Below, piece after piece: positions 50,334 through 55,822 of a stretch of DNA of 64,000 nucleotides. The stretch is from assembly GCF_963378085.1 (NCBI RefSeq), contig NZ_OY726395.1, positions 3,596,001 through 3,660,000 of the forward strand. The letters are read 5' to 3'. Below the pieces are notes generated by a model that saw only the letters and a list, made by a program, of their open reading frames with translations, was not told where the DNA came from and did no database searches. This stretch comes from Mycolicibacterium sp. MU0050. Its GTDB lineage: Bacteria > Actinomycetota > Actinomycetes > Mycobacteriales > Mycobacteriaceae. The stretch's first letter is position 1; each line of letters opens with the position of its first letter. The position numbers and the translations under genes are program-made.

Positions 50334-51107
50334 ATGGCCGGCCTGTCAGAACTGCTGTCCGAAGACCGCATCGCCCTCGACGTGACCGCCGACGGCTGGC
50401 GGCAGGCCATCAGGGCCGCCGGCGGCCTGCTCGAACGAGCCGGTATCGCCGAGTCCGCCTACACGGATTCGATGATCGACAACGTCGAGTCCAACGGGCC
50501 CTACATCGTGGTGGCGCCGGGATTCGCGTTCGCGCACGCCCGCCCGTCCGAGGCGGTGCACCGCACCGCGATGTCCTGGGTGCGGCTGGCCGCACCAGTG
50601 GAGTTCGGGCACAAGACAAATGACCCCGTGACGCTGGTGGTGGCGCTGGCGGCCACCGACGCGGGCGCCCACAACACCGCCATGGCGGAACTGGCCAAGG
50701 TGCTCGGCGACCCGGCCCGGCGCGCGGCGCTGGACACCGCGGCGACACCCGCCGAACTGCTGCGGGCCCTCGGCGGCAGCACCGACCGGGCACCCGCCGC
50801 GACCAAGCAGGGCACCAACCTCATCCTCACGGTGTGCGGAAACGGCCTGGGCACCAGCCTGTTTCTGAAGAGCACCCTCGAACAGGTGTTGCAGACCTGG
50901 CGCTGGGACCGCTTCATCACCGTCGAGGCCACCGACACCATCTCGGCGAAGGGCAAGGCCGCCGGCGCCGACCTGATCCTGACCTCCGGTGAGATCGCCA
51001 AGACGCTGGGCGATGTGGGAATCCCGGTCAAGGTCATCGAGAACTTCAGCTCCACCACCGAGGTCGACGCGGCCCTGCGCGACAGCTACGACATCGAGGA
51101 GATGTGA
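50334..51107 (+). CDS. PTS ascorbate-type IIA-IIB fusion protein
   Basis: 257 residues. N-terminal IIA domain (mannitol/fructose fold, ascorbate subfamily) with phospho-His68 in 'VAPGFAFAHARPSEAV'. A linker of ~25 residues is followed by the IIB domain, with phospho-Cys168 in 'LILTVCGNGLGTSLFLKS' and 'ADLILTSGEIA'. It receives phosphate from HPr and gives it to the sugar carried by the IIC protein next door (TGATG coupling). In E. coli UlaC and UlaB are separate; here they are fused. No EI, HPr or ula catabolic genes are in the window. Substrate is inferred from the family. Confidence 0.88.
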   Translation: MAGLSELLSEDRIALDVTADGWRQAIRAAGGLLERAGIAESAYTDSMIDNVESNGPYIVVAPGFAFAHARPSEAVHRTAMSWVRLAAPVEFGHKTNDPVTLVVALAATDAGAHNTAMAELAKVLGDPARRAALDTAATPAELLRALGGSTDRAPAATKQGTNLILTVCGNGLGTSLFLKSTLEQVLQTWRWDRFITVEATDTISAKGKAAGADLILTSGEIAKTLGDVGIPVKVIENFSSTTEVDAALRDSYDIEEM

Positions 51108-52666
51108 TGGACTGGCTGGTCACGGTCGCCGAATTCGTCGTCAACGAGATCCTGGCGGTCCCCGCCTACCTGATCGGCATCATCACTGCCGTCGGCTTGA
51201 TCGCGCTGCGCAAGAACGTCGGGCAGGTCGTCGGCGGGGCGCTCAAAGCCACCCTCGGCTTCCTGTTGCTCAACGCCGGCGCGGCGCTGGTGATCGCGTC
51301 GCTGGAGCCGCTGGGGGTGATGATCCAGGGCAGCACCGGCAGCCAGGGCGTGGTGCCCACCAACGAGGCGATCGTCGGGATCGCCCAGAACGAGTTCGGC
51401 GCGCAGGTGGCCTGGCTGATGATCCTGGGCTTCGGCTTCAGCCTGCTGCTGGCCCGCTTCACGCCGCTGCACTACGTGTTCCTCACCGGTCACCACATGC
51501 TGTTCATGGCAACGCTGTTGACCATCGTGCTGGCCACCGCGGGCTACTCCACCACGGTGGTCGTGGTCCTCGGCGGCATCCTGCTCGGCGTCATCCTGGT
51601 GTCGCTGCCGGCGATCTCGCAGCCCTGGACCAAGCGAATCACCGGTGACAACAGCATCGCCATCGGCCACTTCGGCACCCTGGGCTACATCTCGGCCGGC
51701 ATCACGGGACGCTTCGTGGGCGGCAAGAACAGCAGGTCCACCGAAGACCTGAAGCTGCCCGAATCGCTGCGCTTCCTGCGCGATTCGATGGTCACCACCG
51801 CGCTGTCGATGGTGCTGATCTATCTGGCGGTCTCCCTGATCTACCTGACCCGGGAAGGGCAGGACACCGCATTCGCGGCATTCGCCGACGACACCGGCGC
51901 CGGGGCGGCCACCGACGTGGGCAACTACCTGATGATGGGCGTCACCGAGGGACTCGGCTTCGGCGTGGCCGTGGCGGTGATCCTGTTCGGCGTGCGCACC
52001 ATCCTCGGTGAGTTGGTACCCGCGTTCCAGGGCATCGCCAAGCGGGTGGTGCCCGGTGCGGTGCCCGCCCTCGACGCGCCCATCGTGTTCCCGTACGCGC
52101 AGAACGCGGTGCTCGTCGGGTTCCTCTCGAGCTTCACCGCGGGGCTGATCGGCCTTGCCGCGCTTGCGGTCTGGTTGGGCCCCGCCTTCGGTTGGGTGCT
52201 GGTGCTTCCTGGTCTGGTGCCGCACTTCTTCACCGGCGGCGCGGCCGGCGTCTACGGCAACGCCACCGGTGGCCGGCGCGGCGCCATCGCCGGCGGCTTC
52301 GTCAACGGCCTGCTGATCACCTTCCTGCCCGCCATCCTGGTCGGGGTCCTCGGCGCCCTCGGCGAGGAGAACACCACCTTCGGCGACACCGACTTCGGTT
52401 GGTACGGAATCCTGATGGGCAACGCCGCCAAGCTGGGCACGGTATGGGGCGTGGTGGTGATGCTGCTGATCAGCATCATCCTGCTCGGGTTGGCGATTCT
52501 GGTGCAGAAGCGTCTCGTCGACACCGGCTGGGACGCCTCCCCGGGCCGCCCGGCGCCGTCCGCGGGTGACGCGGATGGCGACGCGGTGGCCACGGCCGCC
52601 GGCCGCAGCTATCCGAAGATCGCTCCCCCGGCGGGCGCGCCGCCGCCCCCGCCGCCCCCGGCCTGA
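51107..52666 (+). CDS. PTS ascorbate-type IIC permease (UlaA/SgaT family)
   Basis: 519 residues from ATG 51107, overlapping the IIAB stop. About 11 hydrophobic spans up to residue ~470. UlaA-like segments: 'VPAYLIGIITAVGLIALRKN' near the start, 'LHYVFLTGHHMLFMATLLTI', 'ALDAPIVFPYAQNAVLVGFL' and 'LPHFFTGGAAGVYGNATGGR'-type loop ('VPHFFTGGAAGVYGNATGG'). The C-terminal ~45 residues are hydrophilic and end in a run of Pro ('APPAGAPPPP'), unusual for the family. Transports L-ascorbate or a related polyol/sugar acid with phosphorylation. Confidence 0.88.
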   Translation: MDWLVTVAEFVVNEILAVPAYLIGIITAVGLIALRKNVGQVVGGALKATLGFLLLNAGAALVIASLEPLGVMIQGSTGSQGVVPTNEAIVGIAQNEFGAQVAWLMILGFGFSLLLARFTPLHYVFLTGHHMLFMATLLTIVLATAGYSTTVVVVLGGILLGVILVSLPAISQPWTKRITGDNSIAIGHFGTLGYISAGITGRFVGGKNSRSTEDLKLPESLRFLRDSMVTTALSMVLIYLAVSLIYLTREGQDTAFAAFADDTGAGAATDVGNYLMMGVTEGLGFGVAVAVILFGVRTILGELVPAFQGIAKRVVPGAVPALDAPIVFPYAQNAVLVGFLSSFTAGLIGLAALAVWLGPAFGWVLVLPGLVPHFFTGGAAGVYGNATGGRRGAIAGGFVNGLLITFLPAILVGVLGALGEENTTFGDTDFGWYGILMGNAAKLGTVWGVVVMLLISIILLGLAILVQKRLVDTGWDASPGRPAPSAGDADGDAVATAAGRSYPKIAPPAGAPPPPPPPA

Positions 52667-52738
52667 GCTCGGGATTCGACCATTTCGCAGCAACAATTGA
52701 GCCTTCTGCTTATTCGACTGAGCGTCTGGCCGCCGGTG

Positions 52739-52765
52739 TGTCACACATCGGCGGGCAGTCTCGTC
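52739..52765 (+). promoter_or_regulatory. SigJ (ECF41) promoter of the CMD gene
   Basis: TGTCACA (52739-52745), exactly 16 bp, CGTC (52762-52765). This equals the ECF41 promoter consensus as I remember it (TGTCACA-N16-CGTC). It stands 8 bp before the ATG of the carboxymuconolactone decarboxylase-like gene, next to the ECF41 factor SigJ. The short distance implies a leaderless or nearly leaderless mRNA. Confidence 0.8.
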
Positions 52766-52773
52766 TGAAAGGT

Positions 52774-53346
52774 ATGACCCAAACCCGTATTCCCGCCCTG
52801 CCCCCGCACAAGACCGGCCTGCTGACCCGCCTGATGTACCGCTACACCAAGCGACGGTTCGGTGCAGTCCCCGAGCCGTTCGCCGTGGTCGCGCACCACC
52901 CGCGCCTGCTGATCGCCAATGCCGTGCACGAGTCGCTGCTGCAGGGCGGGTCCAAGAAGCTACCCACCAGCGTCCGCGAACTCGCGGTGTTCTGGACCGC
53001 CCGCGCGATCGGCTGCTCGTGGTGCGTGGACTTCGGCTCCATGCTGCAACGCCTCGACGGCCTCGACGTCGACCGCCTGAGATCGATCGACGACTACGCC
53101 ACCTCGCCCCTGTTCAGCGACGACGAGCGCGCCGCCATCGCCTACGCCGACACCATGACCACCGACGCCCACGCCGTGACCGACGAGCAGGTCGGTGACC
53201 TGCGCCGCCGGTTCGGCGACGACGGGGTGATCGAGTTGACCTATCAGATCGGGGTGGAGAACATGCGGGCCCGGATGTACGCCGCGCTCGGCATCACCGA
53301 GCAGGGCTTCAACTCCGGGGACGCGTGCCGGGTGCCCTGGGCGTAG
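52774..53346 (+). CDS. Carboxymuconolactone decarboxylase/AhpD-like protein, SigJ partner
   Basis: 190 residues from ATG 52774; an upstream in-frame start would fall inside the promoter. AhpD-like alpha-helical fold with a Cys pair in 'RAIGCSWCVDFGSMLQRLDG' (Cys81, Cys84). The usual following His of the AhpD triad is Ser here, so peroxidase relay may be altered. 'LPTSVRELAVFWTARAIG' is the typical preceding helix. Genes of this kind are the classic neighbours and targets of ECF41 sigma factors. Its 3' end overlaps sigJ by 38 bp, tail to tail. Confidence 0.87.
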   Translation: MTQTRIPALPPHKTGLLTRLMYRYTKRRFGAVPEPFAVVAHHPRLLIANAVHESLLQGGSKKLPTSVRELAVFWTARAIGCSWCVDFGSMLQRLDGLDVDRLRSIDDYATSPLFSDDERAAIAYADTMTTDAHAVTDEQVGDLRRRFGDDGVIELTYQIGVENMRARMYAALGITEQGFNSGDACRVPWA

Positions 53347-54250
53347 CGCCCAGCGGCGACCCGCCGAACTTGTCCGGGTTGGCGATATCCCATACCGCCC
53401 AGACCTTTCCGTCCTTGACCGTCATCGCCGCGATGCGCGGTGACAGCGGGGCGAAGCCGGATTCGGCGGACTGGCCCGCCGTGAAAGACCCGAGCTCGCC
53501 GTTGACCAGCGCCAGTCGCTGGGTCGTCACGAAGCCCGGCCCATAGCGCCGGGCCAGGCCGAGCAGGAGCCGGGCCACCTTGTCGGGGCCCACGACGATC
53601 TGGGCGGCGGTGGGCGCACGGCGGTTGGCATCGCCGGTGAAGCGCACCTCGGGATGCAGCTGCGCGACCACCGCGGCCAGGTCGCCGTCGGCGATCGCGG
53701 CCATCAGCTTGCCGACGGCCTCGTCGTGGCGCGGGTCCGACGGCGGGGCCGGGGCGTGGGCCACCGCACGGCGGGCCCGCGAGGCGAGCTGCCGCGCGGC
53801 GGTCGCGGTGGTGTCCAGCACCTCGGCGATCTCGGTGAAGGGCACCCCGAAGCCGTCGTGCAACACGAAGGCGACCCGTTGATCCGGTGAGAGGCGTTCC
53901 AGCACAACCATTGCCGCATACCGGGCACCTTCGGCCGCGACAACCGCGGCCAGGGGTTCGTCGGCGCCGAATTCCAGCACCACGGGCTCGGGCAGCCAGC
54001 TGCCGAAGTAGCTCTCCCTGCGGTGCGCGGCCGAGCGCAGCCAGTCCAGGCTCAGCCGGCTCACCACCGTCGTCAGCCAGGCGCGCAGATCCGCGATCTC
54101 GCGTCGGCGGTCCCCGAGCCCTTCCAGGCGCAGCCACGCGTCCTGCACCATGTCCTCGGCATCGGCGATCGTGCCGGTCAACCGGTAGGCCACCGCAAGC
54201 AGATGGGGTCGCACCGCCTCGAATTCGGCGGCTTCCGCGATCGAGCTCAC
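53309..54250 (-). CDS. sigJ: ECF41-group sigma factor SigJ with C-terminal SnoaL-like domain
   Basis: 313 residues from GTG 54250. Sigma region 2: 'FEAVRPHLLAVAYRLTGTIA' and 'DAEDMVQDAWLRLEG'. Region 4: 'LSPDQRVAFVLHDGFGVPFT' and 'EIAEVLDTTATAARQLASRA'. Between them is the ECF41 signature WLPEP (85-89). A C-terminal NTF2/SnoaL-like domain (about 185-300) ends with 'VWDIANPDKFGG', the NPDK[LF] motif that in ECF41 factors regulates activity in place of an antisigma. No antisigma gene is next to it. Matches Rv3328c. Tied to the hydrogen peroxide response in M. tuberculosis (from memory). Confidence 0.93.
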   Translation of the reverse strand: MSSIAEAAEFEAVRPHLLAVAYRLTGTIADAEDMVQDAWLRLEGLGDRRREIADLRAWLTTVVSRLSLDWLRSAAHRRESYFGSWLPEPVVLEFGADEPLAAVVAAEGARYAAMVVLERLSPDQRVAFVLHDGFGVPFTEIAEVLDTTATAARQLASRARRAVAHAPAPPSDPRHDEAVGKLMAAIADGDLAAVVAQLHPEVRFTGDANRRAPTAAQIVVGPDKVARLLLGLARRYGPGFVTTQRLALVNGELGSFTAGQSAESGFAPLSPRIAAMTVKDGKVWAVWDIANPDKFGGSPLGATPRAPGTRPRS

Positions 54251-54313
54251 GGGCCCAGCCTATTCCGTCGTTGCACCGACGATGAGCCCGCGGCGACCGT
54301 ACTATCCGTGGGC

Positions 54314-55822
54314 ATGGCAATCGCGGAGCCGCCGGCCCGTCCCCGCTCGGACAAGGGACTGCAGGCCGACGCGCTCGGCCTGACGGGCAACATCGTCATC
54401 GGGTTGGCGGCCACCGCCCCGGCCTACAGCCTCGCCGCGACGCTCGGCTACATCGTGCTGGCGGTCGGCGACAAGGCGCCCTCGATGTTCATCCTCGCCT
54501 TCATCCCGATGCTGATGGTGGCGTTCGCGTACCGCGAGCTGGCGCGCGACACCCCGGACTGCGGCACCACGTTCACCTGGGGCACCAAGGCATTCGGGCC
54601 GTGGATCGGTTGGATCGGCGGCTGGGGTCTGGCCGTCTCGGCGATCATCGTGCTGGCCAACGTCGCCGAGATCGCGGCGATCTACCTGTTCCGGTTCGTC
54701 GGGTTGGACTCGCTGGCCGAGTCGCTGACCGCCAAGGTGCTGCTGGGGTCCTTCTTCATCATCGCGATGACCGTGGTCAGTGCGCGGGGCATCGTGCTCT
54801 CGGAGCGCATTCAGAGCGTCCTGATGGTGATCCAGTTCGTGATCCTGATCGGGGTGAGCGTCATCGCCCTGGTCCGGGTGTTCAGCGGCACCGCCGGCGA
54901 GCAGGCGGTGCTGCCGTCGTGGAGCTGGCTGTGGCCCTCCGGGCTGGACGCCAGTTCCATTGCGGCCGCGGTGATTCTCTGCATCTTCATCTATTGGGGC
55001 TGGGATGCGTGTCTGGCCGTCGGCGAGGAGACCAAGGATTCGGCGAACACCCCCGGGCGGGCCGCGATCATCACGACGCTGATCCTGGTCGCGACCTACG
55101 TGCTGGTGGCGTATGCCATCCAGTCGTTCGCCGGCTTCGGCGACACCGGGATCGGACTGGGCAACGAGGACAACGTCGACGACGTACTCACCGTGCTCGG
55201 CGGGCCGGTGGCCGGCGGGGTCGCCGCGGCGCTGCTGCTGCTGACGGTGTCCGTCTCGGCGCTGTCCTCGACGCAGACCACCATTCTGCCGACCGCGCGG
55301 GGCACCCTGTCGATGGCGGTGTACGAGGCGATTCCGAAGCGCTTCTCCTTCGTCCACCCGCGCTACATGACGCCCACCTTCGGCACCGTCGTGATGGGCA
55401 TCTCCGCGCTCGGCTTCTTCTTCCTGCTCAGTTTCATCAGCCAGAACGCGCTGGCCGACTCGATCGCGTCGCTGGGGCTGGCGGTGGCCTTCTACTACAT
55501 GATCACCGCGTTCGCCTGCGTCTGGTACTTCCGCCGAACCCTGCTGGATTCTGCGCGAAACCTGTTGATGCGCGGCGTGTTCCCGTTCCTGGGCGGCACC
55601 GCGATGGTGTGGGCGTTCTTCCAGAGCGCGGTCGACATGGTCGATCCGGAGTACGGCTACACCGCCTTCGGACCCGTCGGCGGGGTGTTCGTCTTCGGCG
55701 TCGGAATGCTGGTGCTGGGAGTTCCGCTGATGCTGCTGTGCTTCGCGTTCGGCACCAAGCGCTTCTTCCGCGGTGAGACCCTGACCCCCGAGACCACGGT
55801 CAAGGTGCCCGACATCTACTGA
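54314..55822 (+). CDS. APC superfamily amino acid/polyamine permease
   Basis: 502 residues from ATG 54314. Twelve hydrophobic spans. The family start is 'LQADALGLTGNIVIGLAATA' with 'PAYSLAATLGYIVLAVGDKA', then 'YRELARDTPDCGTTFTWGTK' and 'GWIGGWGLAVSAIIVLANVA'. The middle has 'IFIYWGWDACLAVGEETKDS'. Imports amino acids or amines; the specificity is not readable. TACTAT ends 9 bp before the ATG, so the start may be almost leaderless. A universal stress gene follows by 17 bp. Next to an aldehyde dehydrogenase and an aminotransferase, amine uptake for catabolism is plausible. Confidence 0.88.
   Translation: MAIAEPPARPRSDKGLQADALGLTGNIVIGLAATAPAYSLAATLGYIVLAVGDKAPSMFILAFIPMLMVAFAYRELARDTPDCGTTFTWGTKAFGPWIGWIGGWGLAVSAIIVLANVAEIAAIYLFRFVGLDSLAESLTAKVLLGSFFIIAMTVVSARGIVLSERIQSVLMVIQFVILIGVSVIALVRVFSGTAGEQAVLPSWSWLWPSGLDASSIAAAVILCIFIYWGWDACLAVGEETKDSANTPGRAAIITTLILVATYVLVAYAIQSFAGFGDTGIGLGNEDNVDDVLTVLGGPVAGGVAAALLLLTVSVSALSSTQTTILPTARGTLSMAVYEAIPKRFSFVHPRYMTPTFGTVVMGISALGFFFLLSFISQNALADSIASLGLAVAFYYMITAFACVWYFRRTLLDSARNLLMRGVFPFLGGTAMVWAFFQSAVDMVDPEYGYTAFGPVGGVFVFGVGMLVLGVPLMLLCFAFGTKRFFRGETLTPETTVKVPDIY

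Follow-up and report, generated by a model that had tools for sequence, protein, structure and literature searches.

The ECF41 group of sigma factors was delineated by Wecke et al. 2012 (PMC3426412), whose accessible text defines the promoter of the group, its CMD, oxidoreductase or epimerase targets, the lack of an anti-sigma gene and a regulon of one target, and states the WLPEP motif as a feature of these proteins. In the same part of that paper, the sigma factor and its target are convergent in 9 of 373 cases (2%), and the mapped targets have leaders, with untranslated regions of 22/23 nt by RACE, while Table 5 gives 31/32 for the same genes. An inhibitory C-terminal domain is described in the available part of PMC8999054, and the SigJ target named in the available part of PMC4821874 is sigI, not a CMD gene. 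Leaderless genes of mycobacteria are described in PMC4633059 and PMC3898074, both accessible in part. Among the titles and abstract beginnings of the literature matches listed, in which subscription journals are thinly covered, there was no paper on leaderless ECF41 targets or on a mycobacterial SigJ-CMD pair. The promoter and the type of target are already published for ECF41, as far as the accessible part of PMC3426412 goes, and the comparative picture is the new part.

The window is the whole stretch of 64,000 nucleotides of Mycolicibacterium sp. MU0050 that was analysed (contig NZ_OY726395.1, positions 3,596,001 to 3,660,000, forward strand), and coordinates are given within it. The comparison started from 270 confirmed loci that were found by patterns in the CMD protein, the promoter having no part in the search. 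The best 80 of these 270, all with mycobacterial record titles and, because of this selection, close relatives, form the named set. The features of the locus are the following.

52739..52745, plus strand: −35 element TGTCACA of the ECF41 type (pattern match; GTCAC invariant in 80/80 named loci)
52746..52761, plus strand: promoter spacer of 16 nt, its 3′ half (52753-52761) reading GGGCAGTCT here, consensus GGGCTGtCT
52762..52765, plus strand: −10 element CGTC (invariant in 80/80; gone in 22/23 genomes with CMD and without sigJ)
52766..52773, plus strand: stretch of 8 nt from the −10 element to the start codon (length invariant, 80/80)
52774, plus strand: predicted +1, the A of the CMD ATG, giving a leaderless mRNA (ninth base after CGTC)
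52774..53346, plus strand: CMD/AhpD-like gene of 190 aa with a CSWC motif, the target
53309..53346, both strands: overlap of 38 bp between the 3′ ends of CMD and sigJ (lengths vary among relatives)
53309..54250, minus strand: sigJ, ECF41 sigma factor of 313 codons with a C-terminal SnoaL-like domain (Pfam, NCBIfam SigJ model, 5xe7)
54257..54262, minus strand: TAGGCT, a −10 of the form TANNNT, predicted vegetative leaderless promoter of sigJ, 6 nt before its GTG

The initial annotation had read the minus-strand gene as an ECF41 sigma factor with the WLPEP and NPDK[LF] motifs and a SnoaL-like C-terminus, and all of these were found. Sigma regions 2 and 4 were matched in the sigJ product, and the SnoaL_2 match, with 24.4 bits, is slightly below the Pfam cut-off of 27. 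The NCBIfam SigJ model gives 380.5 bits (cut-off 271), and the sole solved sequence at E <= 1e-10 is the SigJ chain 5xe7 (9.2e-121, residues 5-303), which we take to be M. tuberculosis SigJ and which has the same domain order. The WLPEP linker motif appears in the translation as SWLPEPVV, and the NPDK[LF] motif, an ECF41 hallmark, appears near the C-terminus as ANPDKFGG; this latter term was not found in the accessible text of PMC3426412. In common with the ECF41 systems that have CMD targets (B. licheniformis ydfG and R. sphaeroides RSP_0606; PMC3426412, available part), the locus has a sigma factor with regions 2 and 4, a WLPEP linker and a C-terminal extension, a CxxC target of the CMD type, the promoter TGTCACA-N16-CGTC and no anti-sigma gene. 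Indeed, no anti-sigma gene was found among the scanned neighbours (CMD-like, PTS IIC, amino-acid permease), so that both the missing anti-sigma neighbour and the CMD neighbour agree with membership of ECF41. The locus is adjoined by an ascorbate-type PTS IIC gene, and the ORF upstream of this gene resembles EIIA/EIIB parts by eye (50334-52666).

The promoter was found where the initial annotation had placed it, with TGTCACA-N16-CGTC at 52739-52765, 8 nt ahead of the CMD ATG at 52774, and the CMD locus thereby carries the ECF41 target promoter. The genome-wide search that had been proposed was run, and in 5.2 Mb it gave this CMD promoter as the sole exact match with an N16 spacer. With a loose spacer (N14-18), one match was obtained in the window against 0.20 expected, and 3 were obtained in the genome against 8 for the reversed pattern, so that there is no genome-wide enrichment of the motif; a relaxed form (any seventh base, N15-17) gives 38 sites in the whole genome against 17 reversed. 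By itself the motif is weak evidence. Position and conservation raise it above chance, because it ends 8 nt ahead of the gene next to sigJ, is the sole N16 copy and is kept in 80/80 named loci. A coincidental match next to a sigma factor that has nothing to do with it could draw on the fact that 19 of 100 shuffles of the window contain at least one match to the loose pattern, but this explanation retains practically no probability, being refuted by conservation at a fixed distance in 80/80 loci. The ECF41-type promoter ahead of the CMD gene is real. A further site, TGTCACC-N16-CGTC (G000:C1:3895839-3895865; L042, L008), lies divergent from a SigJ-like paralogue of the same genome; it points away from that sigma gene and has no clear gene after it.

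The arrangement [N]GTCAC[A/G]-N16-CGTC-N8-ATG occurs without indel in all 80 named mycobacterial loci, where the seventh base of the −35 element is A in 95% and G in 5%, while GTCAC and CGTC do not vary and the twenty bases ahead of the −35 element are near random, the last one excepted. The 3′ half of the spacer, GGGCTGtCT, is kept in loci with sigJ and its core CTGtCT recurs in other genera, which is possibly the mark of an extra SigJ contact. The sigJ gene lies within the fetched flank in 79/80 named loci and is convergent to CMD in 79/79 of them, as it is in the 37/37 loci of other genera where it was found within the stretch; this differs from the 2% of convergent pairs in the accessible part of PMC3426412. 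The promoter is also intact in 17/17 genus genomes with sigJ, where the motif was read by eye, and in 20/20 further genomes with sigJ, which were hand-picked, not random, from the 241 genomes carrying both genes; species may recur between the named, 17-genome and 20-genome sets.

The two genes go together in the 296 genus genomes, each of which was searched for both; sorted by hand, the results give CMD with sigJ in 241, CMD only in 23, sigJ only in 2 (G374 and G504), neither in 24 and an intermediate sigJ in 6. The sigJ line was drawn by eye on a two-humped list (present at E < 1e-100, absent at > 1e-60), the 6 between comprising 5 with CMD and 1 without; CMD was counted as present at E <= 1e-40, with 3 of the 269 being weak (G284 2.9e-72, G308 3.2e-64, G457 1.5e-43). 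In the 23 genomes with CMD only, the promoter is broken in 22, and the one in which it is intact has a sigJ fragment beside CMD. All 22 broken promoters keep GTCACA, N16 and N8, and the −10 element has changed from CGTC to CATC in 20, TGTC in 1 and GGTC in 1; the motif of the 3′ half of the spacer is gone as well. For the 5 intermediate genomes with CMD, the promoter is intact in 4, and in the fifth the CMD match begins at residue 76, so that the promoter cannot be judged there. In the CMD tree, made by a quick method from 114 rows with every second named locus, the 22 sigJ-less sequences form one clade (SH-aLRT 98) inside the sigJ-bearing rows, with support of 72-89 for the branches around it. 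The loss of sigJ together with the −10 element is therefore a single event, not a repeated one, and as a sign of mutual dependence between promoter and sigma factor it is suggestive; the comparative evidence for this dependence, taken as a whole, is strong.

The upstream regions of this clade (L056, L057, L061, L257-L278) contain conserved blocks such as AACCCAATATTG and TAGTTAGTCCGTCAA ahead of the changed promoter. In the three sigJ-less loci whose ORFs were listed, the gene immediately after CMD encodes a permease of the type found past sigJ in the window, and a divergent acyl-CoA dehydrogenase-like gene lies upstream of CMD (names read from sequence). The fact that the clade keeps the −35 element and the N16/N8 spacing means that a factor other than SigJ may read the promoter there, and conceivably elsewhere too. 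Taken to its full extent, this would make TGTCACA a transcription-factor site and CGTC part of the promoter of another sigma factor, a reading to which the retention of GTCACA, N16 and N8 in 22/22 sigJ-less sequences and the other conserved blocks upstream lend some weight. It is very unlikely, given that the −35 element, the −10 element and their spacing equal the tested ECF41 promoter (PMC3426412, accessible part), and that CGTC and the spacer motif were lost in the clade where sigJ was lost. Recognition by SigJ is the preferred reading, and the self-contained SigJ/CMD pair of the initial annotation, with no anti-sigma gene among the scanned neighbours and a leaderless geometry, is well supported by the comparison, the promoter being kept in the examined genomes with sigJ and broken in the clade without it.

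The comparison extends to other genera of the same family. Forty-eight loci from these were hand-picked (8 from one listing and 40 fetched), and the promoter with N16 is found before CMD in 47 of them (46 with GTCAC and 1 with GTTAC). The start codon chosen in each of these 47 lies 34-67 nt past CGTC behind an SD-like string, defined as GGAG, GAGG, AGGA or AAGG at 5-16 nt before the start; for the mycobacterial loci, the 8 nt before the CMD ATG hold no well-placed SD. The leader is thus found in the sister genera only, and it appears to have been lost on the way to Mycobacterium. One locus with another genus code and outside the 48 (L058, genome G232) shows the leaderless arrangement, and the tree groups it with the mycobacterial rows.

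The comparison bears also on where transcription would begin. Bases 8-9 after CGTC are a pyrimidine followed by a purine in 41/47 leadered loci, mostly TA, with no start codon constraining them there; the 80 mycobacterial loci have T or C as base 8, while their base 9 belongs to the start codon as the A of the ATG. This pair fits the mycobacterial start sites of PMC3898074, the available part of which reports a purine at +1 in 85% of starts, with a pyrimidine as the usual flank. If the distances in Table 5 of PMC3426412, as seen in its accessible part, are measured from the −10 element, the start mapped there would be the ninth base after it, corresponding to the A of the ATG here. The geometry fits a leaderless CMD mRNA with +1 predicted at the ATG, and in this the CMD of the window, which looks leaderless, differs from the targets in the accessible part of PMC3426412, whose leaders of 22/23 nt contain a ribosome-binding site. 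An inner in-frame ATG does exist, and AUG at +1 is a prediction, so that SigJ could drive transcription from a point downstream of the first ATG, with the protein made from the inner Met (LTRLMYRY) or from another start. This is very improbable, since the SD-preceded start codon of other genera opens the same N-terminus (e.g., MTRIP...), several residues ahead of that Met (R5, P11, T18) do not vary in the alignment, and the sequence has no SD before the inner Met.

The sigJ gene itself seems to be read from another kind of promoter. TANNNT stands 6-8 nt before a sigJ start codon in 74/75 named loci (4 more skipped) and in 19/19 further mycobacterial controls (1 skipped), whereas control windows farther upstream contain it in 0-3/75 and 0-2/19; SD-like strings precede sigJ in 1/75 and 0/19. 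For the other genera, TANNNT is found 6-9 nt before the start in 32/35 loci (2 skipped; control windows 0-5/35), and 9 of these 35 loci also have an SD-like string, partly formed by the TANNNT hexamer itself. Given this placement and the few SD-like strings, sigJ is predicted to be leaderless and vegetatively transcribed across the family, and the target looks leaderless only in Mycobacterium. Autoregulation of sigJ through an ECF41 site was considered and rejected, with 1 degenerate match in 79 named and 0 in 37 other-genus upstream regions, the TANNNT promoter being present instead. With the mycobacterial leaderless genes of PMC4633059 and PMC3898074, in the parts available, the SigJ/CMD pair has in common an RTG at the predicted +1, no SD and, for sigJ, a TANNNT −10; it differs from them in that CMD, the target of an alternative sigma factor, would be leaderless beside a leadered form of the same gene in sister genera.

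The CMD protein has no Pfam family at E <= 0.001, and thus no match to PF02627; its NCBIfam scores (TIGR01926 43.6 bits, NF053654 69.4 bits) are both below the cut-offs, and its PDB relatives are 2gmy and 6ohi. Because those relatives are named CMD/AhpD while the family models are missed, the protein is by its sequence a distant CMD/AhpD member at best. The CxxC motif is present as CSWC in 80/80 named orthologues, and the position 12 residues before the first Cys is acidic in all of them (Glu in 67, Asp in 13); both features are in common with the AhpD-like or CMD-fold oxidoreductases 2gmy and the debrominase Bmp8 (6ohi), from which the protein differs by a Trp between the cysteines and by a Gly for the His at the fourth position after the second Cys. 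In AhpD, the His sits four residues after the second Cys, and 2gmy carries it in the alignment with the CMD protein. The initial annotation had a Ser in place of this His, which did not hold, given that the aligned residue is Gly and the Ser is the next residue along. The Gly is found in 80/80 named, 48/48 other-genus and 22/22 sigJ-less orthologues, so that none of these has the His required of an AhpD alkylhydroperoxidase proper, and its invariance makes it a trait of the subfamily and not a recent loss. Public records (P0007, P0014, P0033, P0042) call CMD orthologues 'transposase', which looks like a misannotation that has spread.

At the 3′ side, the overlap of 38 bp reported by the initial annotation is there, with the CMD stop ending at 53346 and the sigJ ORF at 53309-54250 on the minus strand. 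The further suggestion, that CMD transcription runs antisense into sigJ, was not borne out as a conserved feature. Overlaps are found in 30 of the 80 named loci (4-98 bp), the ends lie within 200 bp in 9, at 200-700 bp in 15 and farther in 23, and the remaining loci are 1 overlap of >200 bp left unchecked, 1 partial sigJ and 1 where no sigJ was in reach. In 5/9 inspected gapped loci (L106, L115, L116, L126, L131), sigJ is followed by another gene on the same strand, a PPOX-type oxidoreductase by eye. A built-in negative feedback by antisense transcription through the overlap would suit the convergent order, kept in all named and other-genus loci with sigJ in reach, and the window, where no terminator-like site was found at 52600-54400 (shuffle mean 0.6). 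It is unlikely, given that the overlap is limited to a minority of the named loci and variable in length, and that other genes intervene in part of the loci; such feedback is possible in the window, and by comparison it would not be a conserved design.

The same geometry was seen elsewhere. In some of the species, GTCACR-N16-CGTC-N8-ATG also precedes genes other than CMD (L302-L304, L307-L319), which encode small membrane proteins (DoxX_2 in one case), a membrane protein that matches PPOX weakly, an enoyl-CoA hydratase and an ECF41-like sigma factor, while in 4 of the 20 fetched stretches (L300, L301, L305, L306) only a short ORF follows the motif. As N8 was built into the search pattern for these non-CMD matches, the generality of N8 cannot be read from them. 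In the distance histogram (32 genus rows, one overlapping duplicate dropped), N16 sites peak at N8, which says nothing on the generality of N8 because CMD itself accounts for 9 of the 10 rows with N8. L310 and L311 contain, near 2070-2108, a back-to-back pair of divergent ECF41-type promoters, both at 8 nt from an ATG, one in front of a 129-aa membrane protein and the other in front of a 45/46-aa peptide. One motif of exact geometry is also present in a 3.3-Mb genus genome with no CMD or sigJ match at 1e-40 (G338:C1:832542-832578).

Altogether, it is highly probable that SigJ and CMD form a switch of one sigma factor and one target that works through leaderless mRNAs. The sigJ gene would be transcribed from the vegetative TANNNT promoter as a leaderless mRNA. 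Its product would be kept inactive by the SnoaL-like domain, in line with what is reported for ECF41, and a signal, which is probably a small molecule, would free it. RNA polymerase with SigJ, on which CMD transcription in this organism would depend, would then bind TGTCACA and CGTC, perhaps also touching the spacer in its 3′ half, and transcription would begin at the A of the ATG. The CMD mRNA would then be leaderless, and the CxxC enzyme that it encodes may clear the inducing compound or its damage. Against the switch stand the facts that the sigJ-less genomes are one clade, that G374 and G504 have sigJ without CMD, that the motif is unenriched and that the published targets are leadered.

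A wider reading, tentative and somewhat more apt to be wrong than right, is that the whole SigJ circuit in mycobacteria works on leaderless mRNAs. The sigJ gene would have done so since the ancestor of the family, and the target would have come to it by deletion of the SD leader, which fused the promoter to the start codon, N8 being fixed thereafter. After the loss of sigJ in one clade, the promoter would have lost its −10 element and spacer contacts, kept its −35 element and fused start, and been taken over by another factor. If this is true, the switch would be at its best under conditions that favour leaderless translation, such as starvation. The pair is a candidate for a system of one target whose promoter is fixed, with a leadered version in sister genera and a clade that has half of the promoter and no sigma factor, and it offers a natural experiment on the mutual dependence of promoter and sigma factor and on the effect of leader loss on output.
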